From: Sorghum bicolor
Taxonomy: Eukaryota; Streptophyta; Magnoliopsida; Poales; Poaceae
Direction: 5' to 3'
Assembly (NCBI RefSeq): GCF_000003195.3
Contig: NC_012872.2
Location: 19,052,491 to 19,116,490, forward strand
Length of the DNA stretch: 64,000 nt
The notes under the pieces are model-generated. The model did not search any database and was not told where the DNA came from. It saw only the letters and a program-made list of their open reading frames with translations. The number at the start of each line of letters is the position of its first letter. Positions within the stretch are counted from its first letter, which is position 1. A program made the position numbers and the translations under genes. Positions 1 through 53,917 of the stretch are shown in pieces.

Positions 1-348
1 CTCTTTGAGCAGGGTATAAATATAAACCCTAGGACCTTGTAATCAAGATATCAAGAAATCAATCAAACACACGTTTTACTCATATTCCAGCATCTACTTT
101 TTCGACGACTTCGTCATATTTTTTTCTTTTTATTACGAGTTCTTAGGAATTCGTCGACTTAAGCTCGGCGTGTTCTCGAGTTCCGCGTGAGTACCTCTTA
201 GCCGTGACATCCGGGCGCATCGCTGTTGTCAGGACTAAAGTATTCGAGTTATTACCTTTGCCGATAGCAAGGTCAAATCGGCTGGCACGCCTTAACGTTT
301 GAATCGGGTATTAGCCCTTTGTGTTTGCAGATCAGTTTTGCATCAACA
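1..348 (+). repeat. G1 5' LTR (3' half only)
   Basis: Matches 11626-11973 base for base and ends in CATCAACA directly before the primer-binding site. The start of the LTR lies outside the window; from the 3' copy the full LTR is 689 bp. Confidence 0.95.
15..26 (+). promoter_or_regulatory. TATA box of G1 5' LTR
   Basis: TATAAATATAAA within the LTR, repeated at 11640-11651 in the 3' LTR. The G2 3' LTR has the same box (about 54711) but the G2 5' LTR has lost part of the surrounding sequence. Expected to start the genomic RNA about 30 bp downstream. Confidence 0.75.
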
Positions 349-353
349 CATCT

Positions 354-373
354 TTTGGCACGCCCAGTGGGAC
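354..373 (+). other. G1 primer-binding site
   Basis: TTTGGCACGCCCAGTGGGAC lies 5 bases after the LTR end and is conserved at 20451-20470 in G2. This is the position of the tRNA primer site. The primer tRNA cannot be named without a tRNA comparison; it is neither the initiator-Met type (TGGTATC...) nor the Asp type (TGGCGCC...) seen in the other elements here. Confidence 0.7.
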
Positions 374-394
374 AGATTCAAGATCAAGATCAAC

Positions 395-2494
395 ATGTCG
401 ATCTCCGACCTCGATCAAGAGAACGTCATCCCCGTGACAGAGGCCAACCTCAAGGATGAGCAAAAGCAAGCTATTGCCCAAGCCATGGAAGAGTTCAAGC
501 AGCAGTGCCTGAAGTCTTTCAGCATAAACAGGAGCGGCGAAGTGGTCCAGAAAGATGCACTGCCGGTACCACGGCAGGTCACCTTCGACGCCAACCCTGG
601 CAAGCTTCAAGATATGGTAGACAATGCCATCAATCGAGCGTTGATTAACCAAGCTGGCGTACTGTCTAATACGGTTTTCAACGCCATGGCAAGAACTTTC
701 AAGGAAGGACAAATCCCGCCAGATTATGTGGGGCCCTCCCATCATCAGCCAACGGCACCAGAGGTCACGGCTCCATCGGCTGCCTTGACGAATGTAAGTG
801 CACAGTCTGCCGTCCCTCCAAGTACATTGGGGACTACTGGTGCACTATCTATGCCGATGGCAACCAACCCACAAATTTCAGTTGGGCAGCATAAACTGAC
901 AACAGATATGTTGGCATCGGCAATGGCAGGGTTAAATCTTCCTCCCAACTGGTGGGGTTATGGTATGCCTCCAGAGTTGACGCCGGGAACATCACAAATA
1001 ACTGACATGAGGGGCAAAACTCCTATGACATCGGCACCTCCCAATGCGCCGGTGAACCAGAGTCCTCGGTATACCACAACTACTACCGCACGGCCTTACA
1101 CTGGGAATCCTCAAGATTCAATGTTCCCGATGCCCAACGCATCGGCAGAGTCAATGCTGATGCAACAGAGGTCTATGGCCCAGTCGGGGTATGTCAATTC
1201 AACGACGGTACCCAATTACCAATCATCGGCAGCACCTATGCCGATGAACGCTAATAATGGATGGCTTGGACAGCAGGCCTTTCCACAATCGCCCCAGCAG
1301 GGTTATCAGACTACAGGGTTCCAGCAAGGACAGGTCTATCCCGGGTTCCAAGGTCAGGGGATTCCCAACCAGCCAATAAATTTTGGGCAGCAACTCGGAG
1401 GACAGCCAATCGGTGGACAACAGTTTGGTGGTCCGCAGATTGGAGGACAGGTGACCAATACGATGTTCCATACAGGTCACGTCCCGAACAGACACGTGGA
1501 GGTTCGCCACCAAGTGCCAGATCCGCAGCCGCCCCATCGGCAAGATGTCGATGCGTATTGGGCCGATAAGATTGCTGAAGTAATGAGGGAACAATTCGGG
1601 ATAAAACCCAAAGTCAACACTTATTCTTATCGGACACCGTATCCTCCAGCGTATGATTTGATCCCGCTTCCACATCGGTACAAGGTACCGGATTTTACAA
1701 AGTTTTCCGGACAGGACGACACGTCAACCATGGAGCATATCAACAGGTTCATTATTCAATGTGGAGAGGCTGGTAACAGGGACGAATTGAGGGTTCGTCT
1801 ATTTTCATCATCATTGTCTGGATCGGCCTTTACTTGGTTCATATCATTACCTCCTAACTCAGTAATTACTTGGGCCGATCTAGAGAAGCAATTCCACAGA
1901 TACTTCTTCTCGGGGGTTCATGAGAAGAAGATCACCGACTTGGTCAAGTTGAGGCAACGTAATGATGAGTCGGTTGAAGGATTTGTGCAGAGGATACGAG
2001 AGGTCAAGAATAAATGCTATAGCCTGGTTCTGGATGATCGGCAGCTAGCCGATTTGGCTTTCCAGGGTTTGTTGCCACATATCAGGGATAAGTATGCCTC
2101 TCAAGAATTCGAAAGTTTAAGTCACTTGGTGCAGAGGATATCTGATCAAGACATCAAGCCTTTCGAGCCTAAGAGGGCATGGAATAAGAAAGTCTCATTT
2201 GTTGATGAAGCAACAAGCTCAGATTCCGATGAAGAACCAGTAATCGGTTTGGCAGAGTGGGTAAAAAACAAGAAGCCGATGTCTTGTCCTTTTGGGCAGA
2301 AGGAACTAGAGAAGTTCGCCTTTGATACCGCCAAGGCCGATAGGATATTTGACTTTCTACTTCAGGAAGGTCAGATCAAACTGTCACCTAACCATGTGAT
2401 TCCATCGGCAGAAGAGTTCAAGAGGATGAGATATTGCAAGTGGCATAATGCGACTTCACATGACACCAACGAGTGCAAAGTATTCAGACAGTAG
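395..2494 (+). CDS. gag: G1 Gag polyprotein, ended early by an in-frame TAG
   Basis: Forms the virus-like particle that packages element RNA. The start is taken at ATG 395, the first one after the primer-binding site; the frame is also open upstream into the LTR. The N-terminal half (roughly residues 100-420) is disordered, rich in Pro, Gln, Gly and Met. A retrotransposon Gag domain follows (about 455-600, from PDFTKFSGQDD through QRISDQD). Near the end is a CxxH...HxxxxC zinc-knuckle-like motif (CKWHNATSHDTNEC). The TAG at 2492-2494 falls six residues after this motif. The frame continues without other stops to 4003, and the paralogue G2 has CAG here (about 45500), so this is a CAG-to-TAG nonsense change rather than the family's normal end. 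Suppression of the TAG cannot be excluded. Confidence 0.9.
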   Translation: MSISDLDQENVIPVTEANLKDEQKQAIAQAMEEFKQQCLKSFSINRSGEVVQKDALPVPRQVTFDANPGKLQDMVDNAINRALINQAGVLSNTVFNAMARTFKEGQIPPDYVGPSHHQPTAPEVTAPSAALTNVSAQSAVPPSTLGTTGALSMPMATNPQISVGQHKLTTDMLASAMAGLNLPPNWWGYGMPPELTPGTSQITDMRGKTPMTSAPPNAPVNQSPRYTTTTTARPYTGNPQDSMFPMPNASAESMLMQQRSMAQSGYVNSTTVPNYQSSAAPMPMNANNGWLGQQAFPQSPQQGYQTTGFQQGQVYPGFQGQGIPNQPINFGQQLGGQPIGGQQFGGPQIGGQVTNTMFHTGHVPNRHVEVRHQVPDPQPPHRQDVDAYWADKIAEVMREQFGIKPKVNTYSYRTPYPPAYDLIPLPHRYKVPDFTKFSGQDDTSTMEHINRFIIQCGEAGNRDELRVRLFSSSLSGSAFTWFISLPPNSVITWADLEKQFHRYFFSGVHEKKITDLVKLRQRNDESVEGFVQRIREVKNKCYSLVLDDRQLADLAFQGLLPHIRDKYASQEFESLSHLVQRISDQDIKPFEPKRAWNKKVSFVDEATSSDSDEEPVIGLAEWVKNKKPMSCPFGQKELEKFAFDTAKADRIFDFLLQEGQIKLSPNHVIPSAEEFKRMRYCKWHNATSHDTNECKVFRQ

Positions 2495-4003
2495 CTGCAA
2501 TCGGCTATAGAGTCAGGGAGAATCAAGTTTGACAGTGCTAAAACCCAGAAGCCGATGAAGATAGACCAACATCCTTTCCCGACAAACATGTTGGACGCTA
2601 AGGGGAAGGCTAAGGTCTTAACGTCGGAAACAGCTGAGAAGAGTGCGTCGGTAGATCCTCAGCATCAAGTTACTACTGCCGATGCAAGAAATAAGGGCTT
2701 GGTCCAGGAAGGGACTAGCTCGGGAAGGCCTCCTCGGTCTGGTATCGTCATAACTCATAGAAGGCCACGAGGAAATTGGCAACGACGGGAAGAAGAAAGA
2801 CGCCGACAGGAGTGGAATCGGCACAGGGATCATTGGAATTGTCCATTCTTCATCCATTGTTGGGAGGAAAATATCAAGCTTCCTACTGTCAGAGACTGCC
2901 CTGAGTGCAACGGTTATGATCGGTACGGTAGAACCGATCGGCGTTATCATGATGATGAACGGCGATTTAATGGGCCAATCAGAGGAAGGGCGTCAGTTCA
3001 TGATCGGCTGGGAGGCAGGCTTAGCATTCACGATCGGCTCAGTGACCGTGTCCGGTATTTCCCCCGGAACCAAGAGGAGCTCGAAGGGATGGCTGATGCG
3101 CGGGTTCCCGATGAATTCATATTTTGCAGGGATGCTAACACGCATCGCATGGAGTCAAGAGAGAACCAACGCCCGACGGTGAGGCAAAGGCCACTTCTTC
3201 CATGGTGCCCTCAAGGATTAACCAAGACACAGAAAAGGAGGTTGCAACGTGAAAGGCAGGAAGAGCTAAATAAAGAAGAGAACTCTGGAAGTCGGCAGCC
3301 GTCAGACACTAAGAGGGAAGGTCCATCGGCTGGCGTCAACATGGTCTTCATGTTGCCGATGGAGTTTCTTGCACCAGCTAGTGACAATGAGTTGGAATTT
3401 TCTGATCAGATAGCTCAGTTGGCTCTGGATCCGATGACGGCTATCTTTGAGAAACCTGCCGATGACGAGAGGCAGCATCTTAAGGCCTTGTTCCTCAAAG
3501 GAAGGGTTGATGGGCAGCCAATGACTAAGATCCTAGTTGATGGTGGAGCTGCTATTAATATTATGCCGTATGCAGTATATCAGAAGCTTGGGAAAGGGGA
3601 TCAAGATTTGACCAAGACCGATATGATGCTCAAAGACTTTGAGGGAAACGTGTCTCCAGTCAAGGGGGCGATATGTGCAGAGTTGACCATCGGCAGCAAA
3701 ACCTTGCCGACAACTTTTTTCGTGATCAGCGGAAAAGGTGCCTACAATTTATTATTGGGGAGAGATTGGATTCATGCCAATTGTTGTGTCCCATCTACAA
3801 TGCATCAGTGCTTGGTTCAGTGGGTAGGTGACAAGATTGAGATCGTCCCAGGGGATTCTTCTTATGTTATCGCATCGGCAGAAGCGGATACTTATGAAAG
3901 GACTAGGTGCATTTCAGGAGAAGTTTGGGAGAAAGATTTTCTCAAAGTTGCCGATTATGAGATTCCACCGATCCAAGCAGTCGGTTCTGACGACGGTTTT
4001 TAA
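2495..4003 (+). CDS. G1 Gag C-terminal extension and aspartic protease, same frame as gag
   Basis: Continues the gag frame after the TAG. The first two thirds are charged, Arg-rich and not assigned to a domain. The retropepsin is at the C-terminal end: catalytic motif VDGGAAINIM with Asp codon 3539-3541 and the downstream LLLGRDWIHAN block. The protease would cut the Gag-Pol polyprotein. It is fused to gag, not to RT: the frame ends in TAA (4001-4003), whose last base is the A of the ATG of the RT frame (TAATG). Without readthrough of the TAG at 2492 this part would need internal initiation. The G2 copy has the same layout. Confidence 0.85.
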   Translation: MQSAIESGRIKFDSAKTQKPMKIDQHPFPTNMLDAKGKAKVLTSETAEKSASVDPQHQVTTADARNKGLVQEGTSSGRPPRSGIVITHRRPRGNWQRREEERRRQEWNRHRDHWNCPFFIHCWEENIKLPTVRDCPECNGYDRYGRTDRRYHDDERRFNGPIRGRASVHDRLGGRLSIHDRLSDRVRYFPRNQEELEGMADARVPDEFIFCRDANTHRMESRENQRPTVRQRPLLPWCPQGLTKTQKRRLQRERQEELNKEENSGSRQPSDTKREGPSAGVNMVFMLPMEFLAPASDNELEFSDQIAQLALDPMTAIFEKPADDERQHLKALFLKGRVDGQPMTKILVDGGAAINIMPYAVYQKLGKGDQDLTKTDMMLKDFEGNVSPVKGAICAELTIGSKTLPTTFFVISGKGAYNLLLGRDWIHANCCVPSTMHQCLVQWVGDKIEIVPGDSSYVIASAEADTYERTRCISGEVWEKDFLKVADYEIPPIQAVGSDDGF

Positions 4004-6291
4004 TGGATAGATTCGCCGATGATGGAAAATTAGGCCAGGGGTTCACATCGGCCGATGATTTGGTAGAAGTAGATATAGGTAGTGGTGATAAGCCTAGACC
4101 TACTTTTATTAGTGCTAGATTAGATCCTGAGTGTAAGCGACAACTGATTAGTTTGTTAAAGGAATATAAAGACTGCTTTGCTTGGGATTATACAGAGATG
4201 CCTGGTTTAGACCGATCAATTGTCGAACATCGGTTACCCATCAAGTCCGGATTTCGGCCACATCAGCAACCAGCCCGCAGATGTAATCCTAACATTCTAC
4301 CTGATATTAAGGCCGAAATCACTAAACTTATTGAAGCTGAGTTTATTCGGCAGTGTCGGTATGCCGAATGGATTTCCAATGTTGTTCCGGTTTACAAGAA
4401 GAACGGGAAGCTTCGGGTGTGCATTGATTTCAGGAATCTCAATAAAGCTACGCCGATGGATGGATACCCAATGCCTGTCGCCGATCTACTGGTTGATGCT
4501 GCGGCTGGCCATCGGGTTATCAGCTTCATGGATGGTAATGCGGGTTATAATCAAATATTCATGGCAGAGGAGGATATTCCAAAAACCGCATTCAGGTGTC
4601 CTGGTCATGTTGGACTATTTGAATGGATAGTCATGACTTTTGGGTTAAAGAATGCTGGTGCTACTTATCAAAGGGCCATGAATTTTATATTTCATGAGTT
4701 CATCGGCAAGTTCGTAGAAATTTATATCGATGATGTGGTGGTTAAGTCTGGAGATTTCTCAAAGCATCTTGCCGATTTACGAAAAGTGTTGGAGTGCACA
4801 AGGAAGCATGGATTAAAGATGAATCCCAACAAGTGTGCATTTGGCGTATCGGCAGGGCAGTTTCTTGGTTTCATGGTACATCAGAGGGGTATTGAAATTA
4901 GTCGAAGATCTATTGATGCCATCAATAAAATAGTGGCCCCTACCAATAAAACTGAGCTCCAATCCTTGATCGGCAAGGTGAATTTTATCAGAAGATTTAT
5001 ATCGAATTTATCCGGGAGAATTCGTGCTTTCAGTCCTCTTCTTAAATTGAAAGCCGATCAGGAGTTTGTTTGGGGAGAAGAACAGCAGTTGGCTCTGGAT
5101 GAAATCAAAAAGTATCTAGTAAATCCTCCAGTTTTAGTTCCACCTCAACAAGGGAAACCCTTCAAATTATATTTATCTACCGATGGATCGGTTATCGGTT
5201 CAGCTTTAGTTCAAGAATTTGAAGGGAAAGAGAGAGTAATTTATTATTTGAGTAGGAGGTTGATTGATGTTGAAACCAGGTATTCGGCCATTGAGAAACT
5301 GTGCTTATGCTTATATTTTTCATGTATTAAGCTGAGACATTACCTGTTGTCGGCTGAATGTGCTGTTGTTTGCAAAGATGACGTGGTTCGATACATGCTA
5401 TCTATGCCGATTATGAGTGGTAGGATTGGTAAATGGATTTTAGCGTTGTCGGAGTTCGATTTGCGTTACGAATCGGCTAAGGCAGTCAAAGGGCATATCA
5501 TGGCCGATTTTGTGACTCAGCATTGCGGTCTAGTGGAAACCTTGGAAATTGCACCCTGGACGCTCTTCTTTGATGGATCTACCTGTGACCGGGGGGCAGG
5601 AATCGGCATTGTATTGGTTTCTCCTGAGGGGAGGAAGTATGAGTTTTCCTTACCGATTGTTGCTACATCAACAAATAATCAGGCTGAGTATCAAGCTCTG
5701 ATCAAGGGATTGGAGTTGTTAAGAGAAGTTCGTGCTGACGCTGTCGAAATATTCGGGGATTCCATGTTGGTTATAAATCAATTGGCCGGAAGCTATGAAT
5801 GCCGAAGTGAAGTTCTCATAACCTATTTCGAGAGAAGTATGCAACTGTTAAAGGAATTCAAGAACTTCCGATTGGAGCATGTTCCCCGATTGCATAATGA
5901 AGACGCTAATCGGTTAGCCCAGCATGCCTCAGGATATCAGCCAATGATTAATGCGACATCGGCAGTCAGTGCCGTTGATTGGAGGAAAGAAATTATCGAA
6001 TATCTAGAAGATCCATCCAAAAAAGTTGAAAGACGGGTTCGATTTCAAGCGACCAAGTATGTGCTCCTTGAAAATGAATTGTATTATCGAACTATCGACG
6101 GAATTCTTCTCCGATGCTTGGGTGATGATGAAGCCAGAAGTTTGATGGGGGAAATCCATGAAGGAGTGTGTGGAGCGCATCAGTCAGCTTTTAAGATGAA
6201 GTGGATGATTCGAAGGAATGGATATTTTTGGCCAACCATACTTGAAGATTGTTTTAAATATTTCAAGGCAAGGTTGTCAAAAGTTCGGTAA
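4003..6291 (+). CDS. pol: G1 Pol: reverse transcriptase, RNase H, archaeal-type RNase H, start of integrase
   Basis: Starts at the ATG overlapping the protease stop (TAATG). RT: VCIDFRNLNKAT block near residue 145 and catalytic YIDD at 241-244. RNase H connection domain begins near Asp394 (STDGSVIG). A second RNase H with DGSTCDRGAGIG (Asp524), ...NNQAEYQAL... and ...FGDSMLVINQL... is the archaeal-type domain that marks Tat elements. The integrase zinc-binding domain follows, with the His pair present (GEIHEGVCGAHQS). The frame then breaks at about 6268, where G1 lacks 5 nt present in G2; this removes the CxxC of the zinc finger and stops at 6289. So RT is probably functional in sequence, but no full-length Pol-integrase can be made. 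Confidence 0.92.
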   Translation: MDRFADDGKLGQGFTSADDLVEVDIGSGDKPRPTFISARLDPECKRQLISLLKEYKDCFAWDYTEMPGLDRSIVEHRLPIKSGFRPHQQPARRCNPNILPDIKAEITKLIEAEFIRQCRYAEWISNVVPVYKKNGKLRVCIDFRNLNKATPMDGYPMPVADLLVDAAAGHRVISFMDGNAGYNQIFMAEEDIPKTAFRCPGHVGLFEWIVMTFGLKNAGATYQRAMNFIFHEFIGKFVEIYIDDVVVKSGDFSKHLADLRKVLECTRKHGLKMNPNKCAFGVSAGQFLGFMVHQRGIEISRRSIDAINKIVAPTNKTELQSLIGKVNFIRRFISNLSGRIRAFSPLLKLKADQEFVWGEEQQLALDEIKKYLVNPPVLVPPQQGKPFKLYLSTDGSVIGSALVQEFEGKERVIYYLSRRLIDVETRYSAIEKLCLCLYFSCIKLRHYLLSAECAVVCKDDVVRYMLSMPIMSGRIGKWILALSEFDLRYESAKAVKGHIMADFVTQHCGLVETLEIAPWTLFFDGSTCDRGAGIGIVLVSPEGRKYEFSLPIVATSTNNQAEYQALIKGLELLREVRADAVEIFGDSMLVINQLAGSYECRSEVLITYFERSMQLLKEFKNFRLEHVPRLHNEDANRLAQHASGYQPMINATSAVSAVDWRKEIIEYLEDPSKKVERRVRFQATKYVLLENELYYRTIDGILLRCLGDDEARSLMGEIHEGVCGAHQSAFKMKWMIRRNGYFWPTILEDCFKYFKARLSKVR

Positions 6292-7231
6292 TATCCAGAG
6301 AGCACCCGCATCGGCTATGAATCCTATAATAAAACCTTGGCCGTTCCGGGGGTGGGCCATCGATCTGATCGGCCAGATTTATCCACCATCTAGCAAAGGG
6401 CATAAGTTCATTCTAGTTGCCACTGACTATTTCACTAAGTGGGTCGAAGCTATTCCTTTGAAGAAAGTCACATCGGCCAATATGATTGATTTTGTGAAGG
6501 AGCATATTATTTACCGATTTGGGATTCCCCAAACGATTACTACCGATCAGGGCACCATGTTCACGTCGGGGGAGTTCGATGAATTCGCAATCGGTATGGG
6601 AATTAAAGTGTTGAATTCTTCTCCTTACTATGCTCAAGCCAACGGGCAGGCCGAAGCGTCTAACAAAGGAATTATCAAGCTTATTAAACGAAAAATTGAA
6701 GAAAATCCTCGGCGGTGGCATACATTGTTAAATGAAGCACTGTGGTCTTATCGGATGGCTTGTCATGGATCAACCAAGGTGTCACCCTATCAATTGGTGT
6801 ATGGACATGATGCAGTATTGCCTTGGGAGATTAAGGCTGGATCTAGGCGATTATCTTTTCAAGATCAATTGGCTGCCGATGATTATGCCACTTTGATGAC
6901 CGATGAGTTAGATGATTTAGCAGGGCATCGGTTAAAGGCTTTAATGAGTATAGAAGAAAATAAGAAGAGAGTTGCTAGATGGTATGATAAAAAAGTAAAG
7001 GCTAAGGAGTTTGTCGATGGGGATTTGGTATGGAAGTTGATTTTGCCAGTCGGGACTAAAAGTTCGAAGTTTGGGAAGTGGTCTCCTAATTGGGAAGGTC
7101 CTTATCGGATAAGACACTCAGCTCCTGGTAATGCCTATATTCTAGAAACTCTCGAAGGAGTTGAATTTCCCAGAGCATTAAATGGCAAATATTTAAAGAA
7201 GTACTACCCCAGCATATGGGTCGACGCATAA
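6269..7231 (+). CDS. G1 integrase catalytic core and C-terminus, out of frame with pol
   Basis: Encodes the DDE strand-transfer domain that inserts element cDNA. Catalytic residues are visible: Asp codon 6362-6364 (AIDLIG), Asp 6545-6547 (TTDQG) and Glu 6653-6655 (QAEASN), with 35 residues between the second Asp and the Glu, as in retroviral integrases. The C-terminus ends in ...KKYYPSIWVDA before TAA at 7229. No chromodomain is seen, as usual for the lineage. The 5-nt deletion near 6268 separates it from RT. The protein is otherwise open throughout. Confidence 0.88.
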   Translation, partial: QGCQKFGNIQRAPASAMNPIIKPWPFRGWAIDLIGQIYPPSSKGHKFILVATDYFTKWVEAIPLKKVTSANMIDFVKEHIIYRFGIPQTITTDQGTMFTSGEFDEFAIGMGIKVLNSSPYYAQANGQAEASNKGIIKLIKRKIEENPRRWHTLLNEALWSYRMACHGSTKVSPYQLVYGHDAVLPWEIKAGSRRLSFQDQLAADDYATLMTDELDDLAGHRLKALMSIEENKKRVARWYDKKVKAKEFVDGDLVWKLILPVGTKSSKFGKWSPNWEGPYRIRHSAPGNAYILETLEGVEFPRALNGKYLKKYYPSIWVDA

Positions 7232-7376
7232 AAGTTTAAGTGCCGATAACACTCCTATCGGCTGGATTTAAATGTTCAGGGGCGGACTTAATGTTCCAAA
7301 AGATGCCGATAACAGTCTTATCGGCTAGACTAAAAGCTAAAAGCGGAAAAACAAAGGTGTGTTGCCGATGAAAGCT

Positions 7377-10300
7377 TCAGATGTTCAGCAGCGCTTGGAT
7401 TGCTGATATGGCGCGCAGCCGAATCTGATTGGCTGTCTCTATCTCTTTGATATCATCATCGGCAGAACCTTCTATCGGCTTCAGCTTCCTCTTCAGCTGC
7501 AGCGCTTTGCGACCATGGACGTTTCGTTCTTGTTCAAGGTGCTTGATGGTCTCCGGCAGTTGACTCTCTTCTTGCTGGGCTTGGGACAGAGCGTCCTCTA
7601 CTTGCTTGAGTTCGGCCAGTAGAGCTTCTCTTTTTGCCGATAGATCAGACACTTTCTGCTTCAGTGCATCACCTGAGGACTTTAAGGTGCCGATGTTCTT
7701 ATGTTTCTCATCGGCTAAGAGTTTTTCTTTCATCATCTCCTCAGAAAGCTGGATTTGAGCGGCTCTATCGGCAAGGCGTCGAATGGCTCTCTGGTACTGT
7801 AGCTGGCGGCTTTCTAGGTGTGCAGCATGGAAGAGTGTTTCTTCAGCATCGGCGGGAATTTGGCCTCTAAGGGTCTTGAACAGGGCTTTGGCTGGGTCAG
7901 AATCGTTGACCAGTTGAGTTGTGTCTTGATGAAGTATGGCCGATAGCTCTTCCAGCTTAGCTCTGGTTTCTGCCGATACAGTTCCAACCGCCCGAGAGGA
8001 GCTTGCTTCCTCGCCTTCTTCTTCGAAGATATCAATGGCGAAGGAGAATAAGCTGTTGGGAGAATCTTGTTCCTGAAAATGAAGATGAAATAAGTCAGTT
8101 TTATGGTCAAAACTTCGGCAGACGGTGCTGGTGGAAAATTGGATGACTTACTTGCTTCAAGGCAGTTTCTTGCCTTTGACTCAAAGATGCCGATGGAGCT
8201 ACAGGTTGATCGGCAAATGTTGCCGATGGAACGATATCGCCTGAAAGAAGACAGGAAGGATTATGAGACTAAATGAGAATAAGTTTATCGGCGGAAGTAT
8301 TGTTGAGATATGTTACCCGGAGGAGAGAGAACAGCTGCCTGAGTCGGGGAAACCGCCGATGATATAACTGGACCTGCCGGGCGAGTTGTTTGTTCACCTA
8401 CGTCAGCTGATGCACCTGCCACTTGAGGTTCTTCCTGCTGGGGTTCTTCCATCTGTGGTGCTTCCTGTATTGGTTGGGGAGATGGTGCTTGCTGTGTCTG
8501 GACTTCTGGAGGAGAAGAGGAAGATTCCACCGGGATTGGGGACACCGGAGGAGGAGGAGGAGTTGCCACTTTCTGGCGCTTTGTTCCAGCCTTAGCACCT
8601 TGGATGCCCTTCCTCTTTGGCTGGCTAGACTGGGGGGCATCGGCACCTTGGCGTTTGGCTTTTGCCGATGCACCAGTTTGCTGCAACAACAAAAAGGAGT
8701 TTATGAGCACAGATAACCGATATAAAGATAGTCAGCATAAATGAAAAAGGTTTTAACAGATTGCCTTGAAAGCTTGCGCCAGAGTGGAAGCAGTTACCGT
8801 TGGTGATGTCTGAGTTTTCCTGGTGGTAACTTTCTTGAGGCGCGCACCCCGGTGCACGATGGAAGCCAGAGTGGGAGCATTATGGCCGATTGAGGAGATC
8901 GGGCCTGATGGGAATAAGTCGATCGGCTTGCCACTCCTGCTAACCGATGGGGGGGGGGTGTTGTCAATCTGCAAAAGGAATACAGGGGTAAGTTACCGAT
9001 GGGAATAGTATTGGAAAATGAGACATCGGTTTAAAATACTTACAGTGGCATCAGGGACTTCGTATTCGGGGTCGATCATGCCGCGGTATGAGAGGGCCGA
9101 TCTGCAGAATAGATTCTCTTTCCATTCTGCCCACCATAGCTTGTATTCCTGAGTGATAAAGGCAGCTGGAACCCATTCTGACAGATCTACATCTGTATCG
9201 GCATTTGGTGGTAGCTGGGCTACTCGAGTCCACTCGAGGAGGTTGGCGATGGGTTCTCTGGGCTTTATTACATCGGCATAAGGAAGTGCAATCGGCAATT
9301 GGCCGAAAGCTAGCTGGCGAGCTAATGCCGATGGATTATAAAATTCATAGGTTTGGGGGGAGGTTTTCGTGCTACCGAAGAAATTCACTGGTATGGCTCT
9401 GGGAGTCACGATTGCCATCATCACCTCATTGTCCCTGTCGAGAGCTTCATCAAATGGATTGAAGGTCAGAGGGAGCATGCTGTCTGGGTCGTCATAAGCC
9501 AGCCATGGTCGTTCATCTCTGGCCAGACCCTCATACAGAGTCTCGAAGAATCGGCCGATCTGATCCGGATTGTTCCCTGAACCGGGTAAGACTATAACGG
9601 CTTCACCAAAGTTCAAGGGGGCACGCGTTGCCGATTCCTCTTCACCTAACACATGATTCTCGGCTATATCTCTTGGGAAGTGCTGTGAGAACAAGTTGAA
9701 ATCAAGGCGCTTATGCAGGTGCAGATTGAGCCACATATTAATAAACCACCAGGGGCCTCCCAAGTTGCCGATGGATTGGCCAAGCAGGAGTTTCTGGGCT
9801 ACCTGATGAAGAAGGTGGTAAACAGCGCCGAGCAAATATCGGCCGAGAGGAAATGGGCCGCCGCTAGCCAGTCTTTCTGCTGCCGATAGATAGACAGAAG
9901 TCGGTCCTGCCGATCGACCACAGAATACAAACTTGTCCAGCCACATGTTCAGAAAGGTGGTTTGCTCCTTTGTGGTGACAGACCCTCTCCCGCAGTACTT
10001 CTGGATGTACCCTGACCAACCGCCGATAGCGCGAGTCTCCACTTTGGCACTGGGGGCGGTATCAAAAAAGTGGGTGCTATCGGCAGAAGATATATCTAGC
10101 CCAGTAAGCATGGCTACATCGGCAAGGGTAGGAGAAGCAGGGCCGTGGCCAAAAACAAAAGCGTTGAGAGTGTCTGACCAAAAGTAGGATGCAGCTATCA
10201 GCAATGATTCGTTCCTGTGCATATCGGCAATGGATAGCCTAATGCATTGAGCTAGTTTCCTCTCACCCCATTGAACTTCATAAGAATTGCTGACCCTCAA

Positions 10301-10646
10301 GAACCAATCTTTCCACCCTACAGTAGGGCTGGGCCAAGAACGAAAGGTGTCTTTCCACAGATCTAAAGAAAAGTTTTCAGCTCTAAAGGGAATCCTGTTA
10401 GTTTCTGCATTGATAAGGTCGGTTGGATCTGGATCCCCTAGAGGGCCGAGGCACTGAAGGTGTGGTTGATCGGTAGGGATGACAATTTTGTTGGACAACT
10501 CCTAGTGTTTTGGGGAATAAAAATACAAAGAAAAAGGAAAAGGAAAATATTCGGTAAGATGAATCGCAGATGAACAGGAATGCGAGAAAAAGGTACAGCA
10601 GATGAGATGGAAGTCTGACCTCAGGGACGACGAAGCCAATGGCCAT
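7377..10646 (-). CDS. G1 antisense six-exon gene: plant mobile domain (PMD) protein with C-terminal coiled coil, 945 aa
   Basis: Lies opposite to gag-pol, between integrase and 3' LTR. Exons from splice sites I could place: 10646-10620, 10501-9044, 8968-8765, 8680-8317, 8240-8152, 8072-7377; sum 2838 nt, 946 codons with the TGA, all phases matching. Introns are 75-118 bp, GT-AG except intron 3, which starts GC (the G2 copy has GT there). The start ATG sits in AAGATGGCC, is the first ATG after the TATA box at 10794-10802, and begins MAIGFVVPE. Exon 2 carries a plant mobile domain (for example LADVAMLTGLDIS, the WKDWFL block, FPRDIAENHVL), related to the domain of MAIN/MAIL proteins. Exons 3-5 are Pro/Gln-rich; exon 6 is a long charged helix likely to form a coiled coil (DLSAKREALLAELKQVEDAL). 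Antisense extra ORFs are known in Tat elements; the role is unknown. The stop is 145 bp from the pol stop on the other strand, so transcripts converge. Confidence 0.82.
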
Positions 10647-10793
10647 CTTGTCGTGAAGAGGACGTTGGAGGGCACCGGAGTTGATGAAGAAGAATGCTTG
10701 TCGGAGGTCTTGAGGGTTGTAGATGGCGCCGCCGCTGGAAAAGCAGAGTTGGATAGTAGAATGGTGTAATGGGGAGGAGTACCCAAGAAGGAA

Positions 10794-10802
10794 CTATTTA
10801 TA
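10794..10802 (-). promoter_or_regulatory. TATA box of the antisense PMD gene
   Basis: TATAAATAG on the minus strand, about 150 bp before the ATG at 10646, with no other ATG in between. The same position in the decayed G2 copy also keeps TATAAATA (53917-53910). It lies inside the element, about 480 bp from the 3' LTR, so the gene appears to have a private promoter. Confidence 0.72.
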
Positions 10803-11270
10803 GGACAAGATGGGCAAGGGCAAATCCGTCTTATCTCTTTGCCGCATCCGAGAAGCCCGAGGGTACTCAGGTGGATATGGTAACTGTTCGCACGGTAATC
10901 CAGGGATTGTGCAGGTGATTTGACAGGAAGCGGTCATTATCTAAAGATATTTTACTGTGCGCAATCTCCTGGTCGGTCCATCGGCGATATTCTATAACGG
11001 TCATCTTGCCGATAGGCGGATAGACGGGGGTAACCGTTTTTTGCGAATATCCTGGTCAGAGCATCGGCGGATCTTTATAACGGAATTGTTGCCGATGTAC
11101 GACCAAGAGAGATGCCCGTTTAGGAAGTTGGGGATTTCGAGGAATCTGCGGAGGATTAGGATCAGAGTTGCCCAGATTGAGGTTGTCGGTTACCAGATTA
11201 GGAGCATTAATTGCGGAGAAGGCATCATTACTGCAGAGAATTTCGGAGCATTAATAGTTTTATATTCCGA
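10803..11270. other. G1 noncoding segment between antisense promoter and polypurine tract
   Basis: No ORF of weight. Rich in the word CCGAT/ATCGG (for example near 10980, 11008, 11064, 11092). It would serve as the upstream control region of the antisense gene and as 3' leader of the sense RNA. A similar stretch is at 53918-54300 in G2. Confidence 0.6.
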
Positions 11271-11284
11271 AACTGGGGGGCATG
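11271..11284 (+). other. G1 polypurine tract
   Basis: AACTGGGGGGCATG directly before the 3' LTR start TGTTGA; the matching G2 tract is AAATTGGGGGCATG at 54301-54314. Primes plus-strand DNA synthesis. Confidence 0.75.
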
Positions 11285-11973
11285 TGTTGACACCGTTTTT
11301 GGGCACGTGTCCAGGATGGCAGGATAGGGTGGCAGTACAATGCGGGTTGCTGATGAGGATGGTTGCCGATGAGGGAGAGGTTGGATGTGACTAAGTCCAC
11401 AGGCAGTAATATGGTGCCGATGGCTGGGTAAAAAGGTCTGCCGATGACTATGGCAAGGGGATTGCCGATGACGCGAAGGAGGAGTCCGGAAGCTGCCAGT
11501 TGTCATCTGGAGGAGTTTCGGTTTGTCACGAAGGATAGTTTTATTATTTCCTTAGTTATTTGCATCGTTTTGTATACGGATTCCGTGTAATTTGGAATTT
11601 GAATTCTAATCGTGTCTGGTCGTAGCTCTTTGAGCAGGGTATAAATATAAACCCTAGGACCTTGTAATCAAGATATCAAGAAATCAATCAAACACACGTT
11701 TTACTCATATTCCAGCATCTACTTTTTCGACGACTTCGTCATATTTTTTTCTTTTTATTACGAGTTCTTAGGAATTCGTCGACTTAAGCTCGGCGTGTTC
11801 TCGAGTTCCGCGTGAGTACCTCTTAGCCGTGACATCCGGGCGCATCGCTGTTGTCAGGACTAAAGTATTCGAGTTATTACCTTTGCCGATAGCAAGGTCA
11901 AATCGGCTGGCACGCCTTAACGTTTGAATCGGGTATTAGCCCTTTGTGTTTGCAGATCAGTTTTGCATCAACA
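11285..11973 (+). repeat. G1 3' LTR, 689 bp
   Basis: Starts TGTTGACACC and ends CATCAACA (TG...CA with imperfect inverted ends). Contains TATAAATATAAA at 11640-11651. Its last 348 bp match 1-348 exactly. Confidence 0.95.
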
Positions 11974-13179: not shown

Positions 13180-14050
13180 CTTGAAAGGTCCTAATATGGC
13201 TAGAGGGGGGGTGAATAGCCTATTTTTAAAAAATCTACAAACTCACTAGAGCAAGAGGTTAGTAAATAACAAAGCGAAGCTTTTTGCTCTAGCTCTAAAG
13301 GGGTGTTTGCAAGCCACCTATCCAACAATTCTAGTTGATATAATCACTAGGCACACAGGAGCTATGTCACTACTTACACTAGAAAGCTACCTAAAGTTTC
13401 TATACAAGTAAGTAAGCTACTCTAGTTTGCGGGAATGTAAAGAGATGGTTTGAACTTTATACCACCGCGTAGAGAGGATGAACCAATCAAAAATATGAAG
13501 TCCAATCACCGGGAGAAATCCAATGAACAATCACAATGGAGACACACAATTTTTCTCCCGAGGTTCACGTGCTTGCCGGCACGCTACGTCCCCGTTGTGT
13601 CGACCAACACTTGGTGGTTCGGTGGCTAAGAGGTGTAGCACGAACCTCGTCCTCACTAGGACACCACAAGAACCTACCCACAAGTGAGGTAGCTCAATGA
13701 CACGAGCAATCCACTAATGTTGCCTTTGGCTCTCCGCCGAGGTAGGCACAAACCTCTCACAATCACTGGGAGATGGCCACGAACAATCACCAACTCGTGC
13801 CAATCCTCCTCCACTGCTCCAAGCCGTCTAGGTGGCGGCAACCACCAAGAGTAACAAGAAAACGGCAGCTAGAACGATCCCCAAGTGCCACTAGATGCAA
13901 TCACTCAAGCAAATGCACTTGGAATCACTCCCAATCTCACAAAGATGTTTAATCTAAGAAGGAGATGAGTGGGAGGTGTATGCTTAGGATCACAAGGATG
14001 TTGTGTATGCTAGAATGCCAAGAGAGACAGCCCCAAGCCGGCTAAACACG

Positions 14051-14059
14051 TATTTATAG
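14051..14059 (-). promoter_or_regulatory. TATA box of Copia-A LTR
   Basis: CTATAAATA on the minus strand, kept in the solo LTR near 17889-17897 (TATTTATAG on the plus strand). It lies just downstream of the palindrome cluster. Confidence 0.7.
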
Positions 14060-14110
14060 CCCCTCAAACAAATAGAGCCGTTGGCTCTTTTACTGGGCAA
14101 AACTCGGGGT

Positions 14111-14506
14111 CACCGGACGCTCTTAAAGTGGCACCGGACGCTCAGCCCTTGCGTCCGGTGCTCCAACGTCAGCCGCGTGTCAGAATCTAACGGTAACCTG
14201 CAGAGCACCGGACGCTGAGCAAGCTTCCACCGGATGCGTCCGGTGCACACCGGACCCATGCGCAGAGAGCTTCGCAAACTCGCAGAGTCACCACGCGAGC
14301 CACCGGACGCACCCTTAGCGTCCGGTGCTCACCGGACCCATGCGCAGAGAGGGTCGCAAAACGCCCGCACACCGGACGCACACCACCGGACGCTCAAGCC
14401 AGCGTCTGGTGCCTATCGTCCTGTGCCTTACCCTAGCTGGGCCAGGCACTGTCTGCACCGGACGCTCAGACGCAGCGTCCGGTGCTCCAGAAGCTAGCGT
14501 CCGGTG
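14111..14506. repeat. Cluster of CACCGGACGC / GCGTCCGGTG palindromic motifs
   Basis: I count 7 copies of CCGGACG and 5 of CGTCCGGTG, plus variants (CCGGACCC, GCGTCTGGTG), in 396 bp. Facing pairs can fold into hairpins. Such palindrome clusters near the TATA box are a known feature of Sirevirus LTRs. Also in the solo LTR (about 17950-18305). Confidence 0.85.
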
Positions 14507-15100
14507 AGTGTTTTCTCAGCGAGAAACACTCCCGCGACTTCTCCAAAATTCCCACCGGCGCAATAGAAAATATGCACTTCATTTTCTCAAAAGCACCGAA
14601 TCCCATCCTCTCTCTACCCTTCAACCTCCACCTCCTTCTCAAAGTGTGTCAACACCACAACGTGTGTACCAACAAGTGCACGTGTGTTAGCATTTTCACA
14701 AACATTTTCTTCGAAGGAGTTAAGTTAGCTCACTAGGTTCTAGATGCATACACAAGAACAATGACACCTAGTGGCACTTGATAACCGTTTAGCCAAAGAA
14801 TTCCCCTCTTTATAGTACAGCTATCTATCCTAAATGTGATCACACCCTCTATGGTGTCTTGATCACCAAAACCAAAACCCTAAGCAATACCTTTGCCTTG
14901 ATCTCCATAGGGTTTTGTTTTTCTCTTTCTTCTTTTCCAAGTTGAGCACTTGATCACCTTGTGGTCATCACCATCATCACCATGATCACCACTTGCTCCT
15001 TCACTTGGCATGTACCAACCTCATTAAGTCTACACACACTTAGCATAGAGGTTAGTACTAGGGTTTCATCAATTAGTCCAAAACCAAACTAGGGCTTTCA

Positions 15101-17021: not shown

Positions 17022-18867
17022 TGAAAGGTCCTAATATGGCTAGAGGGGGGTGAATAGCCTATTTAAAAATTCTACAAACTCACTAGAGCAAGAGGTTAGT
17101 AAATAACAAAGCGAAGCTTTTTGCTCTAGCTCTAATGGGGTGTTTGCAAGCCACCTAACCAACAATTCTAGATGATATAATCACTAGGCACACAAGAGCT
17201 ATGTCACTACTTACACTAGAAAGCTACCTAAAGTTTCTATACGAGTAAGTAAGCTACTCTAGTTTGCGGGAATGTAAAAGAAATGGTTTGAACTTTATAC
17301 CGCCGCGTAGAGGGGATGAACCAATCAGTAATATGAAGTCCAATCACCGGGAGAAATCCAATGAACAATCACAATGGAGACACACAATTTTTCTCCCGAG
17401 GTTCACGTGCATGCCGGCACGCTACGTCCCCGTTGTGTCGACCAACACTTGGTGGTTCGGTGGCTAAGAGGTGTAGCACAAACCTCGTCCTCACTAGGAC
17501 ACCACAAGAACCTACCCACAAGTGAGGTAGCTCAATGACACGAGCAATCCACTAATGTTGCCTTTGGCTCTCCGCCGAGGTAAGCACAAACCTCTCACAA
17601 TCACCGGGAGATGGCCACGAACAATCACCAACTCGTGCCAATCCTCCTCCGCTGCTCCAAGCCGTCTAGGTGGCGGCAACCACCAAGAGTAACAAGAAAA
17701 CCGCAGCCAAAACGATCCCCAAGTGCCACTAGATGCAATCACTCAAGCAAAAGCACTTAGAATCACTCCCAATCTCACAAAGATGTATAATCTATGAAGG
17801 AGATGAGTGGGAGGTGTTTGCTTAGGCTCACAAGGATGTCAAGTATGTTAGAATGCTAAGAGTATGAGCCCCAAGCCGGCCAAACACATATTTATAGCCC
17901 CTCAAACAAATAGAGCCGTTGGCTCTTTCACTGGGCGAAATACGGGGTCACCGGACGCTCCTAAAGGGGCACCGGACGCTCAACATCAGCGTTCGGTGCT
18001 CCAACGTCAGCCGCGTGTCAGAGTCTAACGGTAACCTGCAGAGCACCGGACGCTGAGTTCGGGGCACACCGGACCCATGCGCAGAGAGCTCCGCAAACTT
18101 GCAGGGTCACCGGACGCAAGCCACCGGACGTACCCTTAGCGTCCGGTGCTCACCGGACTCATGCGCAGAGAGGGTCACCAAACCGCCTGCACACCGGACG
18201 CTGAGCACCGGACTCTCTCCGGTGCGTCCGGTGCATTCTGCTGCACCCGACAGCACACCGGACGCTAAAGGCCAGCGTCCGGTGCCTCCGCGCAGAGCGT
18301 CCGGTGAGTGTTTCCTACTGAGAAACACTCCCGCGACTTCTCCAAATCTCCCACTGGCGCAATAGAAAAATATGCACTTCATTTTCTCAAACTCCACCTC
18401 CTTCTCAAAGTGTGCCAACACCACAAAGTGTGTACCAACAAGTGTGCACGTGTGTTAGCATTTTCACAAACATTTTTCTTCGAAGGAGTTAAGTTAGCTC
18501 ACTAGGTTCTAAATGCATGTACATGAACAATGACACCTAGTGGCACTTGATAACCGTTTAGCCAAAGAATTCCCCTCTTTATAGTACGGCTATCTATCCT
18601 AAATGTGATCACGCCCTCTATGGTGTCTTGATCACCAAAACCAAAACTCTAAGCAATACCTTTGCCTTGATCTCCATAAGGTTTTGTTTTTCTCTTTCTT
18701 CTTTTCCAAGTTGAGCACTTGATCACCTTGTGGTCATCACCATCATCCCATGATCATCACTTGCTCCATCACTTGGCATGTGCTAACCTCATTAAGTCTA
18801 CACACACTTAGTATAGAGGTTAGTACTAGGGTTTCATCAATTATCCAAAACCAAACTAGGGCTTTCA
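17022..18867 (-). repeat. Solo LTR of the Copia-A family, 1846 bp
   Basis: Aligns along its whole length with 13182-15100 (TGAAAGGTCC...GGGCTTTCA) with small indels. Flanked by CCCCC at 17017-17021 and 18868-18872, a perfect 5-bp TSD, and no internal element sequence on either side. This is the product of recombination between the two LTRs of a full element. Confidence 0.9.
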
Positions 18868-19710: not shown

Positions 19711-20445
19711 TGTTGACACCATTTTTAGACACGTATCTTTGGACGCGTATCTGGGAGTTAATGAGGCATAGATCGGCAGGCGAAAAAGTGGTGACTAGTT
19801 GATAGAAGAGTTGCCGATGAGGATTGATACCAATGATGAAACGACAGAATGTGGCCAAGTCCAAGAATGGTGATGGATTTATGTTGATAACTGATGCTGA
19901 TGGTTGCCGATGACTATGAAAGGTGATTCGCCGATGATCACAAAAGGAGGCGCAGGAATCGTCGATCGGATGGTGATGGTGTGCCGATCGGTTGTGGTGG
20001 ATAAATTAATGTTTTCCATAGTTATTAGAGTTTATTTTGCATATGGATTCCGTTCAATTTGGAATTCGAGTCCTGGTCGTGTCTGATTGTAACTCTTTTG
20101 GGCAAGCTATAAATGTAGACCCCGCAGCGATGTAAGAAGGATATACACAATCAATCAAACACAAGTTTTTACATCTATTCCAACATCTACTTTTTCGACG
20201 ACTTCGTCAACTCGCATATTTTCTTTTACTCACGAGTTCTTAGGAATTCATTGAGTTAATCTCGGCTTGTTCTCAAGTTCCGCGTGAATACCTCTTGGCC
20301 GTGACATCCGGGCGCATCGCTGTTGTCGGGACCAAAGTATTCAAGTTATCATCTTTGTCGATTGTAAGGTCAAATCGGCTGGCACACCTTAACGTTGAAT
20401 CGGGTATTAGCCCTTTGTGTTTGCAGATCTACTTTTGCACCAACA
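19711..20445 (+). repeat. G2 5' LTR, 735 bp
   Basis: TGTTGACACC...GCACCAACA. The TATA region reads GCTATAAATGTAG instead of GGTATAAATATAG in the 3' LTR, so its promoter is probably weakened. Confidence 0.95.
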
Positions 20446-20450
20446 CATCT

Positions 20451-20470
20451 TTTGGCACGCCCAGTGGGAC
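20451..20470 (+). other. G2 primer-binding site
   Basis: Same TTTGGCACGCCCAGTGGGAC as in G1, five bases after the LTR end. Confidence 0.7.
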
Positions 20471-20493
20471 ACAGATTCATCATCAAGATCAAT

Positions 20494-21146
20494 ATGTCTA
20501 ACACTGATTTTGACTTGGAGAACGTTATCCCCGTGACGGAAGCCAATCTCAGAGATGAACAGAAGCAAGCTATGGAGAACTACAAGCAGCTATGCTTGAA
20601 ATCTTTCAGTATCAACAAGAGCGGTGAGGTGATCCAGAAGGAAGCATTGCCGATGCCTCGACAAATCACTTTTGAAGCCAGTCCTGGTAAATTGCAAGAG
20701 ATGGTTGACAACGCTATTAATCGTGCTCTAATCAATCAATCTAGTGTGTTGTCCAATATAGTTTTCAATGTTGTGGCTAGAACTTTCAAAGAAGGACAAG
20801 TACCACCAGCTTATGTGGGCCCTGCCTATCATCAGCCAGGATCATCATCGGTTACGGCTTCATCGGCTACTACGGCCGTCGCGGGTACGGAAGCTACTTC
20901 TCCCCCAAGCACATTAGGGATGACTAATGGGCAATCTACACCGATGATAACTAATCCAGCAGTATCAGAGGGACAAGTTCAACTTGCTACAGATCTATTG
21001 GCATCGGTAATGTCAGGATCTGTGTTTAAGAATTGTCAAGTTCCTCCCAACTGGTGGGGATATCGTATGCCCCCGGACTACCACTACAAGACCATTTTCT
21101 ATGAATTCTCAAATACCAACGTTCCACATGCCTAACGCATCGGCAG
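20494..21146 (+). pseudogene. G2 Gag, N-terminal part, cut by element T
   Basis: ATG 20494 begins MSNTDFDLENVIPVTEANL, close to G1 Gag (MSISDLDQENVIPVTEANL). A deletion relative to G1 just before 21100 shifts the frame to a TAA at 21133. T is inserted at 21146/21147; the gene resumes at 44192-44196 with the repeated target GGCAG. Confidence 0.88.
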
Positions 21147-32955: not shown

Positions 32956-33471
32956 TTACTGATTTTCGAAGAATGTTTTGTAAACTTCTTTTAAATAATC
33001 CTCCGTCTCCCAAGTGGCATCTTCCTCCCCGTGGTTACTCCACAACACCTTGTAGAGCTTAACCACACGATTACGAGTCTCCCATTCCTTACGATCAAGA
33101 ACCGCTACGGGTCTTTCTTCATATACCAAGTCTGACTTCAGTTTGATATCTCGAACTTCCACTCGTTCCTCCGGTACACGAAGGCACTTCTTTAATTGTG
33201 ATACGTGAAAGACAGGGAAAATAGCTCGAAGCACAACTGGGAGTTGAACTTTGTACGCCACATTCCCTTTCTTTTTGAGAATCCGATAAGGTCCCACATA
33301 ACGAGGTGCAAGCTTTCGCTTGACTCCGAACCTTTGTACACCCTTCATCGGAGACACCTTGATATACACATGGTCACCAACTGAAAACTCAATCGGCTTC
33401 CTTCTTTTGTCGGCATAACTTTTCTGACGAGCTTGAGCAGCTTCCAGATGTTGCTGGATGGTACGGACTTG
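32956..33471 (-). pseudogene. T integrase C-terminus with chromodomain
   Basis: Same frame as the integrase core but separated by a TAG at 33474-33472. Contains the GPYRI-type block (RYVGPYRILKKKG), FPVFHVSQLKKCL, and a C-terminal chromodomain (YEERPVAVLDRKEW...VLWSNHGEEDATWETEDYLKEVY). Chromodomains direct integration to marked chromatin in Tekay, CRM and related clades. Reads to the natural stop at 32956. Confidence 0.88.
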
Positions 33472-34278
33472 CTACTCTGCTCCGTTCACGAAATCGATGC
33501 CATAATACCTTCGCTCTCCGGCTTCTACCCAATTCAACGGAGTCCGACACTTTCGACCGTACAGGGCTTCAAATGAAGCCATTTTGATACTCTCGTGATA
33601 ACTGTTGTTATAAGAGAACTCAGCTAATGGCAACCACTTAACCCAAGAACCTTTTGAAGAGAGAGCACATGCCCTCAACATGTCTTCTAGGATTTGGTTG
33701 ACCCTTTCAGTTTGACCCGCGGTTTGGGGATGATAAGCAGAGCCACGGACTAAATGAGTACCAATTTGCTCATGCATACACTCCCAAAATCGAGCAGTGA
33801 AATGCGGTCCACGATCTGATATGATTGTTCTAGGCACACCATACTGACGAACAATGTGCTCGAAATACAACTCCGCGTACTGATGTGGACGATAGTCAGT
33901 TCGTACTGGAATAAATCGAGCAACCTTGGTCAAACGATCTACAATCACCCAGATAGAGTCGAAACCCTTAACAGAAGTTGGGAGTCCAACGATGAAATCC
34001 ATGCTGACTTCTTCCCATTTCCAACCAGGAATTGACAAGGGTTGAAGTAAACCAGCTTTCATGTGAACAGCCTTCACACGGCAACAATTGTCACAACGAG
34101 CGACAAAAGCAGCAATCTCCTTTTTCATCTTTGTCCACCAAAACAGAGGTTTCAAATCCTGATACATCTTGCTACTACCAGGATGGATAGACAATTTGGA
34201 TGAATGAGCTTCAGACAAGATCTGATTTCGCGGCTCGCGGTACAAGTCGATCGTTGAACCAAAGAATTCCGTTCTCAT
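33472..34278 (-). CDS. T integrase zinc-binding and catalytic domains
   Basis: Zinc-binding HHCC (HSSKLSIHPG..., CDNCCRVK) followed by the DDE core: MDFIVGLP (first Asp), ISDRGPHF (second Asp), GQTERVNQ (Glu). Ends in an in-frame TAG after NGAE, just before the QVRT-type C-terminal region. The start given is the first Met after the frame break caused by the 85-bp duplication upstream; the full protein would have been part of Pol. Confidence 0.88.
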   Translation of the reverse strand: MRTEFFGSTIDLYREPRNQILSEAHSSKLSIHPGSSKMYQDLKPLFWWTKMKKEIAAFVARCDNCCRVKAVHMKAGLLQPLSIPGWKWEEVSMDFIVGLPTSVKGFDSIWVIVDRLTKVARFIPVRTDYRPHQYAELYFEHIVRQYGVPRTIISDRGPHFTARFWECMHEQIGTHLVRGSAYHPQTAGQTERVNQILEDMLRACALSSKGSWVKWLPLAEFSYNNSYHESIKMASFEALYGRKCRTPLNWVEAGERRYYGIDFVNGAE

Positions 34279-34319
34279 CGACTCGAAAATGCTTGGTTTC
34301 TTCTTCTTTCATTTTCCTC

Positions 34320-35934: not shown

Positions 35935-35936
35935 AT

Positions 35937-36230
35937 TTAAATATCACGAGGGAGTTGCACTAGAAATGCCTCCTTGGTATTCGGGTCTTTCAACATCACT
36001 ACACGAGTGGTGGTGTCGATAAGAACTCCATTGCCACACATCCACTTCATCCCCAGAATTACATCTATGCCCACACCGGGTAGAACAACCAAATCAGCAA
36101 GAAACTGACGGCCTCCTATTTCCAGAGTTGCCCCTAAAACCACTTGATTGGTGGAAATATCATTTCCCGCAGCACTAATACAATAAGTGCCCTTATCAAG
36201 TGTAATTGCCTTGATATTATGCTTAGACAA
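35937..36230 (-). CDS. T protease, C-terminal part
   Basis: Residues such as GVGIDVILGMKWMCGNG form the second conserved protease block. The catalytic block (ALVLFDSGASHSFVSSEFV) is at the end of the gag frame, one frame off, so a single-base shift near 36225-36230 splits the protease in two. Ends at TAA 35937. Confidence 0.75.
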   Translation of the reverse strand: MSKHNIKAITLDKGTYCISAAGNDISTNQVVLGATLEIGGRQFLADLVVLPGVGIDVILGMKWMCGNGVLIDTTTRVVMLKDPNTKEAFLVQLPRDI

Positions 36231-50290: not shown

Positions 50291-50439
50291 AAGTTTAAAT
50301 GTCGATAACACTCCTATCGGCTAGACAAAATGTATCTGAGATCGTAATGTTTTAAAAGTGCCAATAACAGTCCTATCGGCTAGACCAGAATGATCAAAAG
50401 TTTCTAAGGGTAGAACGAAACAAGTTGCCGATGAAGAGC

Positions 50440-53909: not shown

Positions 53910-53917
53910 TATTTATA
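53910..53917 (-). promoter_or_regulatory. TATA box of the G2 antisense gene
   Basis: TATAAATA on the minus strand, at the same distance from the ATG as in G1. Confidence 0.65.

Follow-up and report, generated by a model that had tools for sequence, protein, structure and literature searches.

Why would a retrotransposon carry a gene on the strand opposite to its gag and pol genes, and what could such a gene do for it? The question is raised by a 64,000-base stretch of the Sorghum bicolor genome (C3:19052491-19116490), referred to here as the window. The left end of the window is occupied by a long terminal repeat (LTR) retrotransposon, element 1. Between the integrase and the 3' LTR of this element lies an accessory gene of six exons (7377-10646, minus strand) that runs antisense to gag-pol. 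An earlier note, made from the letters of the window alone, had read this gene as encoding a plant mobile domain (PMD) protein that may be useful to the retrotransposon or work in trans. The follow-up analysis confirmed the antisense gene as a real gene, beyond chance. This conclusion holds because codon constraint is strong and because gaps between element 1 and an older relative in the same window (element 2) come in multiples of three in all four cases in exons but not in six of ten cases in introns. The genome searched comprised 709 Mb in 846 contigs, and most matches fell on ten chromosome-sized contigs (C1-C10).

Exon-intron structure of the antisense gene

The exon chain (10646-10620, 10501-9044, 8968-8765, 8680-8317, 8240-8152, and 8072-7377, minus strand) adds up to 2838 nucleotides, i.e., 945 codons and a stop codon, with no internal stop. 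The six exons and 946 codons of the earlier note were thus recovered. The same is true of its TATA box, TATAAATA (10795-10802, minus strand), which starts at 10802, the upper bound of the region noted. All 30 aligned loci, among them that of the window, have this box unchanged, and element 2 has it as well.

Family copies were sampled with the non-coding sequence that lies upstream of the gene, since ranking by protein favours the conserved protein. In a genome search with the protein, the 88 scored of 5686 candidates were all 98-100% identical to exon 2. The upstream stretch gave 40 matches including the window, and the 19 sampled copies are ranks 21-39 of the 39 others.

Exon 1 (10620-10646) has nine codons. 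Its ATG at 10646 is present in the window copy and all 19 sampled copies, and both the start and the donor are kept in element 2. Exon 2 (9044-10501) encodes the PMD, and exon 4 (8317-8680) encodes a basic stretch followed by a Pro-rich linker. Exon 5 (8152-8240) was read from the sequence as part of the chain, and exon 6 (7377-8072), which would encode a coiled coil, closes with a stop at 7377-7379. The extent of exon 3 (8765-8968) depends on how intron 3 is spliced. The earlier note described five introns with plant-like borders. Four of them are GT-AG, but intron 3 needs a GC-AG pair with its donor at 8764 to yield the 946-codon chain. An alternative GT donor at 8797, 33 nucleotides upstream and in frame, would remove the last part of the exon (8797-8765) and give 934 codons, so that the product has 945 amino acids with the GC donor or 934 with the GT donor. 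Both donors are present in 19 of 19 sampled copies, which do not discriminate between them. The GC version is favoured because element 2 has a GT exactly at that place and because a related Miscanthus protein holds the extension.

Element 2 is a related, older element of the Tat type, located at 19999-21077 and 44192-55049 and split by a nested insertion of ~23 kb. It carries a homologous, decayed antisense PMD gene (approximately 50440-53755, minus strand) with the same exon layout, in which one acceptor has been lost and internal stops interrupt the frame. The exons of the two genes are 65-85% identical, with gaps of 3, 6, 3, and 36 bases, and the introns are 53-65% identical. At the protein level, exon 6 retains 74.6% identity.

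Purifying selection on the antisense gene

The antisense gene is under purifying selection. Pairwise omega (dN/dS) was estimated from 20 copies with kappa taken from introns, and for pol from 18 copies. Omega was 0.35 for the whole gene, 0.20 for exon 2 (range 0.13-0.20), 0.98 for exon 4 (0.75-0.98), and 0.34 for exon 6 (0.21-0.34). The corresponding values for pol were 0.23 for reverse transcriptase-RNase H (RT-RH) and 0.27 for integrase. The dN/dS check among family copies that the earlier note had called for returned a value well below 1 for the whole gene. When the whole gene was read in other frames as a control, omega was 1.7 and 2.0 in the other sense frames and 1.4, 0.42, and 1.9 in the opposite-strand frames; the low value of 0.42 is one that no test accounts for. 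Two copies whose pol carries different deletions, L041 (C7) and L042 (C3), were left out of the pol estimates and of the within-family motif count given below. The whole antisense gene is intact in L042.

Further evidence comes from substitutions shared by at least two copies, compared with 1000 simulations under a neutral model that keeps the three-base context. Exon 2 had 5 nonsynonymous and 37 synonymous shared substitutions, when 23.4 and 18.6 were expected (ratio 0.11), and no simulation gave a ratio as low. Exon 6 had 10 nonsynonymous substitutions and one stop against 16 synonymous ones (ratio 0.43; 15 of 1000 simulations as low). Exon 4, at 17:9, showed no significant constraint (ratio 0.60; 88 of 1000 as low), and exons 1, 3, and 5 had too few changes for separate tests. 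For the whole gene the ratio was 0.30. In pol it was 0.15 for RT-RH (17:65) and 0.25 for integrase (5:10). Changes seen in a single copy gave ratios of 0.45 for exon 2, 0.49 for exon 6, 0.98 for exon 4, and 0.46 for RT-RH. In other words, selection within the family constrains the PMD exon to roughly the same degree as RT-RH and the gene as a whole less, with exon 4 near neutral.

What does such constraint mean? That the PMD exon is constrained nearly as much as RT suggests a product that benefits its own source copy, or a limited group of copies. Over the longer span between elements 1 and 2 the antisense gene evolves faster than RT, because omega was 0.15-0.25 for the antisense genes (0.44-0.58 for exon 4; 1.1-2.7 in shifted frames) and a tighter 0.05-0.10 for RT-RH.

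Protein domains and predicted fold

The search of the product against PMD families that had been proposed bore out the domain. PMD (PF10536) was found on exon 2 with a score of 58.9 bits against a cut-off of 34.9 (E 6e-16), the best stretch covering profile positions 4-189 of 347. The presumed coiled coil is suggested by weak, below-cut-off matches to coiled-coil families. Exon 6 gave no DUF1409 match at E 0.01, yet it aligns with that part of two rice relatives (P0005 and P0103) in which PMD and DUF1409 (PF07197) are both present. Proteins of the same layout were also found in Miscanthus (57% identity over 91%, without the N-terminus) and Oryza officinalis (31% identity over 92%); no relatives of the gene were found in viral contigs. 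A tree of 32 PMDs placed both genes of the window among element-type homologues and well away from five host-like PMD frames of the same genome; "host" is here a label of this analysis, and the tree holds no published A/B/C references.

Predicted models of the PMD match VANC21 in complex with DNA, a fold expected of a VANC-like function. Exon 2 is thus predicted to fold like the DNA-bound part of VANC21. Other comparisons gave no such indication. Foldseek alone found no meaningful match for the first PMD model, nor did a structure comparison with a viral library, and sequence searches of the PDB with the exon-2 protein, profile A3, and a host-like PMD returned nothing related. A lax Pfam scan (E up to 10) gave PMD and noise but no DUF1985, and the absence of a weak match does not exclude the VANC family.

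A short word repeated across the element

A second feature expected of a VANC-like function is a short motif strongly over-represented in its own element, and here that motif is ATCGGC. Relative to a second-order Markov model of the same stretch, the word is strongly enriched in element 1, which has 99 occurrences in 11,973 bases including the partial left LTR, 50 on one strand and 49 on the other. The word occurs 2, 4, and 0 times in three further stretches of the window, together 37.9 kb, and not at all in the leader (349-600). When codons were shuffled synonymously, keeping the protein and codon use, the observed counts exceeded the shuffle maximum in gag (16 vs 9), protease (13 vs 7), RT-RH (15 vs 10), and the antisense coding sequence (33 vs 13), but not in integrase (4, equal to the maximum of 4). 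The best form of the word is CATCGGCA. Its one-base variants are not enriched, except for ATCGGT (24 vs 9.1 expected). The sites do not look like copies of one repeat, because they occur in several frames and their flanks have little in common apart from a C before and an A after.

The sites are also conserved. Between elements 1 and 2, 53 of 90 ATCGGC sites are found at the same place, compared with 57 of 348 other NNCGNN hexamers (Fisher 6e-15) and 24% of all hexamers. Averaged over 17 copies of the family, 95% of the window's sites are preserved, versus 82% for other CG hexamers.

Two local arrangements stand out. In the LTR, three GCCGAT sites follow each other at exact 24-base steps (11416-11469, minus strand), with a comparable triple in element 2 (steps of 23 and 24 bases). 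In the spacer between the integrase and the antisense gene are two inverted GCCGAT-N9-ATCGGC pairs (7242-7325). These are local features only and a general dimer spacing is not claimed, because gaps between sites are random (coefficient of variation 1.08 vs 0.82-1.19 for random placement) and close pairs are not in excess (31 vs 31.9 expected in element 1, 14 vs 16.7 in element 2). The triple pattern matched 2573 places in the genome, overlaps included, and a reversed control matched none. The 100 places listed are all on C1, and many of them form pairs ~11.6 kb apart, which is the LTR-to-LTR distance. At C1:21979202-21979303 and C1:21990920-21991021, 11.7 kb apart, the array is extended by further 24-base steps at both places, which are probably the LTRs of one copy.

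What the antisense gene may do

The analysis directly established the gene structure, the purifying selection, the match of the predicted fold, and the enrichment and conservation of the motif. What function would join them? The gene may serve the retrotransposon family for self-recognition and anti-silencing, acting in a VANC-like manner via ATCGGC, a proposal that stands at about an even chance. That the antisense PMD protein would read ATCGGC and counter silencing on its kin is argued by analogy, because the motif bound by VANC21 has nine bases and recurs in VANDAL21, and the protein causes methylation loss across its own family (PMC5735166). Under this proposal, the antisense gene would be read from its own TATA promoter and then spliced; its introns could persist because they are antisense to the genomic RNA that is copied. 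The product would enter the nucleus, and its VANC21-like PMD would bind ATCGGC throughout family copies, in LTRs, spacer, and coding sequence alike; two molecules may pair through the presumed coiled coil at the C-terminus. The bound protein would counter host silencing on family members, presumably with demethylation. Interference with host silencing had been suggested in the earlier note; the match to the VANC21-DNA complex and the dense element-specific word speak for it, though it is still an inference.

The same observations could be read otherwise. If the product binds ATCGGC as a transcription factor or a self-limiting repressor of the family LTR, the LTR triple at 24-base steps and its counterpart in element 2 would find a natural place, and the fold resemblance to VANC21 points to no more than DNA binding. 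However, ATCGGC is spread over the whole element including its coding regions, which fits recognition of a whole copy better than that of a single promoter, and an LTR regulator is considered unlikely. Nothing in this analysis ties the word directly to the PMD, and ATCGGC could be a site for a host factor or for integrase or gag, the antisense gene having an unrelated accessory job such as nuclear import. This is quite improbable: equal strand use and non-coding sites point to a protein acting at the DNA level, the other three stretches of the window lack the enrichment, and the predicted fold of the gene product is that of a DNA-binding protein.

It is also conceivable that the PMD protein acts as a decoy, joining the host MAIN/MAIL1-PP7L complex and weakening silencing across the genome, with the motif unrelated. 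MAIN and MAIL1, which are silencing factors, belong to the same Pfam family (PMC7156037, PMC9899485), but the element PMD is far from the PMDs labelled host-like in the tree and the motif would be left unexplained, making a decoy very improbable. Scarcely credible is the idea that the antisense transcript itself matters, through double-stranded RNA or interference, with the frame as a passenger. Antisense RNAs in such roles are discussed in PMC7264820, but codon constraint, the controls in other frames, and the multiples of three among the exon gaps contradict it for this gene.

If the anti-silencing proposal is true, an abundant grass retrotransposon family (to judge from the LTR-array matches) runs its own sequence-specific anti-silencing system, and the constrained, spliced gene on the wrong strand of such elements is accounted for. 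A wider claim, put just short of an even chance, is that PMD is a sequence-specific DNA-binding domain of the VANC fold, which grass Tat elements use in an antisense gene with introns to mark their own copies through ~100 ATCGGC sites per element and escape silencing, as the retrotransposon equivalent of VANC; on that view, MAIN and MAIL1 would be the host's forms of a domain by which transposons recognise themselves. The VANC21-like predicted fold and a six-base candidate site make the question open to a simple binding assay.

The host retrotransposon and decay of its copies

Element 1 occupies positions 1-11973 of the window and is 12.3 kb long. The window's edge cuts its left LTR (1-348, plus strand), which starts ~341-346 bases outside. 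The right LTR (11285-11973, plus strand) has TGTTGA..TCAACA ends and six ATCGGC sites. The insertion is young, as had been claimed, because the two LTRs differ at 2 of 694 aligned positions (692 identical). GCATG flanks both LTRs and was considered as a target-site duplication, but it was dropped, as 28 of the 30 aligned loci, that of the window among them, also have it in front of the 3' LTR.

The domain order is gag (frame 296-2491), protease (2495-4000, in the gag-protease frame), RT, RNase H, and a second RNase H (3991-6288), and integrase (6209-7228), all on the plus strand. The second RNase H (RVT_3, 527-646) follows RT_RNaseH and precedes the integrase domains. In angiosperms, a second RNase H in this position is the mark of the Tat clades Ogre and Retand (PMC6317226), and for this reason element 1 is a Ty3/gypsy element of the Tat clade (Ogre or Retand). 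PMD content by itself suggests the Ogre lineage (PMC6317226).

Are gag and pol broken in this copy, as the earlier note had it? In part. The gag frame ends in an in-frame stop that is absent in both of two other copies seen, and the integrase is shifted out of the RT frame, which is not shared by the 17 copies, among those listed, that have that place. The change of frame between protease and RT near 4000, however, is family-wide (17 of 17 alignable copies) and not a break. At 4001-4005, an overlapping TAATG ends the gag-protease frame and can start the RT frame in the same 17 copies; translation of pol by stop and restart or by frameshift is possible there.

The earlier note had also argued from an antisense gene intact beside a broken pol, but this proved to be ordinary decay. 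The complete antisense gene with all splice sites is retained in 9 of the 19 sampled copies, and RT-to-integrase is retained as a single 1081-residue frame in 8. Both are intact in 4 copies, the antisense gene only in 5, pol only in 4, and neither in 6, so the two seem to decay independently. That the gene is useful to the element is thus supported by codon constraint and no longer by its intactness.

Other features of the window

Inside the nested insertion of element 2 is another Ty3/gypsy element (32959-37425, minus strand) with gag, protease, RT, RNase H, integrase, and a weak, below-cut-off chromodomain match. Two direct repeats (13225-15087 and 17062-18855), ~3.8 kb apart, are 90-98% identical. 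The 12-19.9 kb stretch is rich in words of the CACCGG/GTCCGG type (CACCGG 40 seen vs 8 expected), another repeat-borne word.

Comparison with known systems

PMD-bearing extra open reading frames (eORFs) of Tat/Ogre elements were reportedly described by Steinbauerova in 2011. How much of the present picture is already in print? The earlier note acknowledged parts of antisense frames in Tat elements, which understates what PMC6317226, PMC5418596, and PMC7264820 report. PMD eORFs are given for 57% of Ogre elements (PMC6317226), and two PMD clades (PMD-A1/A2) are described as encoded by Gypsy elements exclusively (PMC5418596). The latter source also puts forward, for MULEs, the idea that captured PMDs are used in transposon anti-silencing. 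Among the non-canonical domains of plant Gypsy elements, PMD is reported to be the most frequent, and DUF1409 is reported in Oryza elements (PMC9289625). The antisense TRP28 genes of Retand and the antisense gene of maize Grande, which has its own promoter and a nuclear product, are likewise published (PMC11963269, PMC7264820). A link of PMD to the VANC fold was not noticed in the open-licence papers searched, and the paper behind 9lnj may make it. PMD and VANC both appear in PMC6419827, where they are reported separately, and both terms occur in PMC8616336.

The gene described here resembles the Tat/Ogre eORFs in having a PMD in a Tat-type element as an extra gene outside gag-pol. Added to these are the six-exon structure, the constraint measured against RT with neutral controls, the VANC21-like predicted fold, and the element-wide word. 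With Grande gene23 and Retand TRP28 it shares an antisense position between pol and the 3' LTR; a promoter of its own and a nuclear product are known for the Grande gene. The Retand genes surveyed in PMC11963269 differ in that they carry Transposase_28 (PF04195), and PMD is not among the domains listed there. MAIN and MAIL1 likewise have the Pfam PMD but are host genes that promote silencing, and the host-like PMDs of the sorghum genome are distant in the tree. VANC21 and VANC6 of VANDAL are alike in being transposon-encoded, in the predicted fold match, in a family-specific repeated short motif, and in combining conserved with highly variable protein regions; the tandem growth of VANC target sites also resembles the extended 24-base arrays of the C1 copy. 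They differ in belonging to a DNA transposon and in having DUF1985 and another motif, whereas here an LTR retrotransposon carries a PMD, the motif is mostly dispersed, and the anti-silencing activity is putative.
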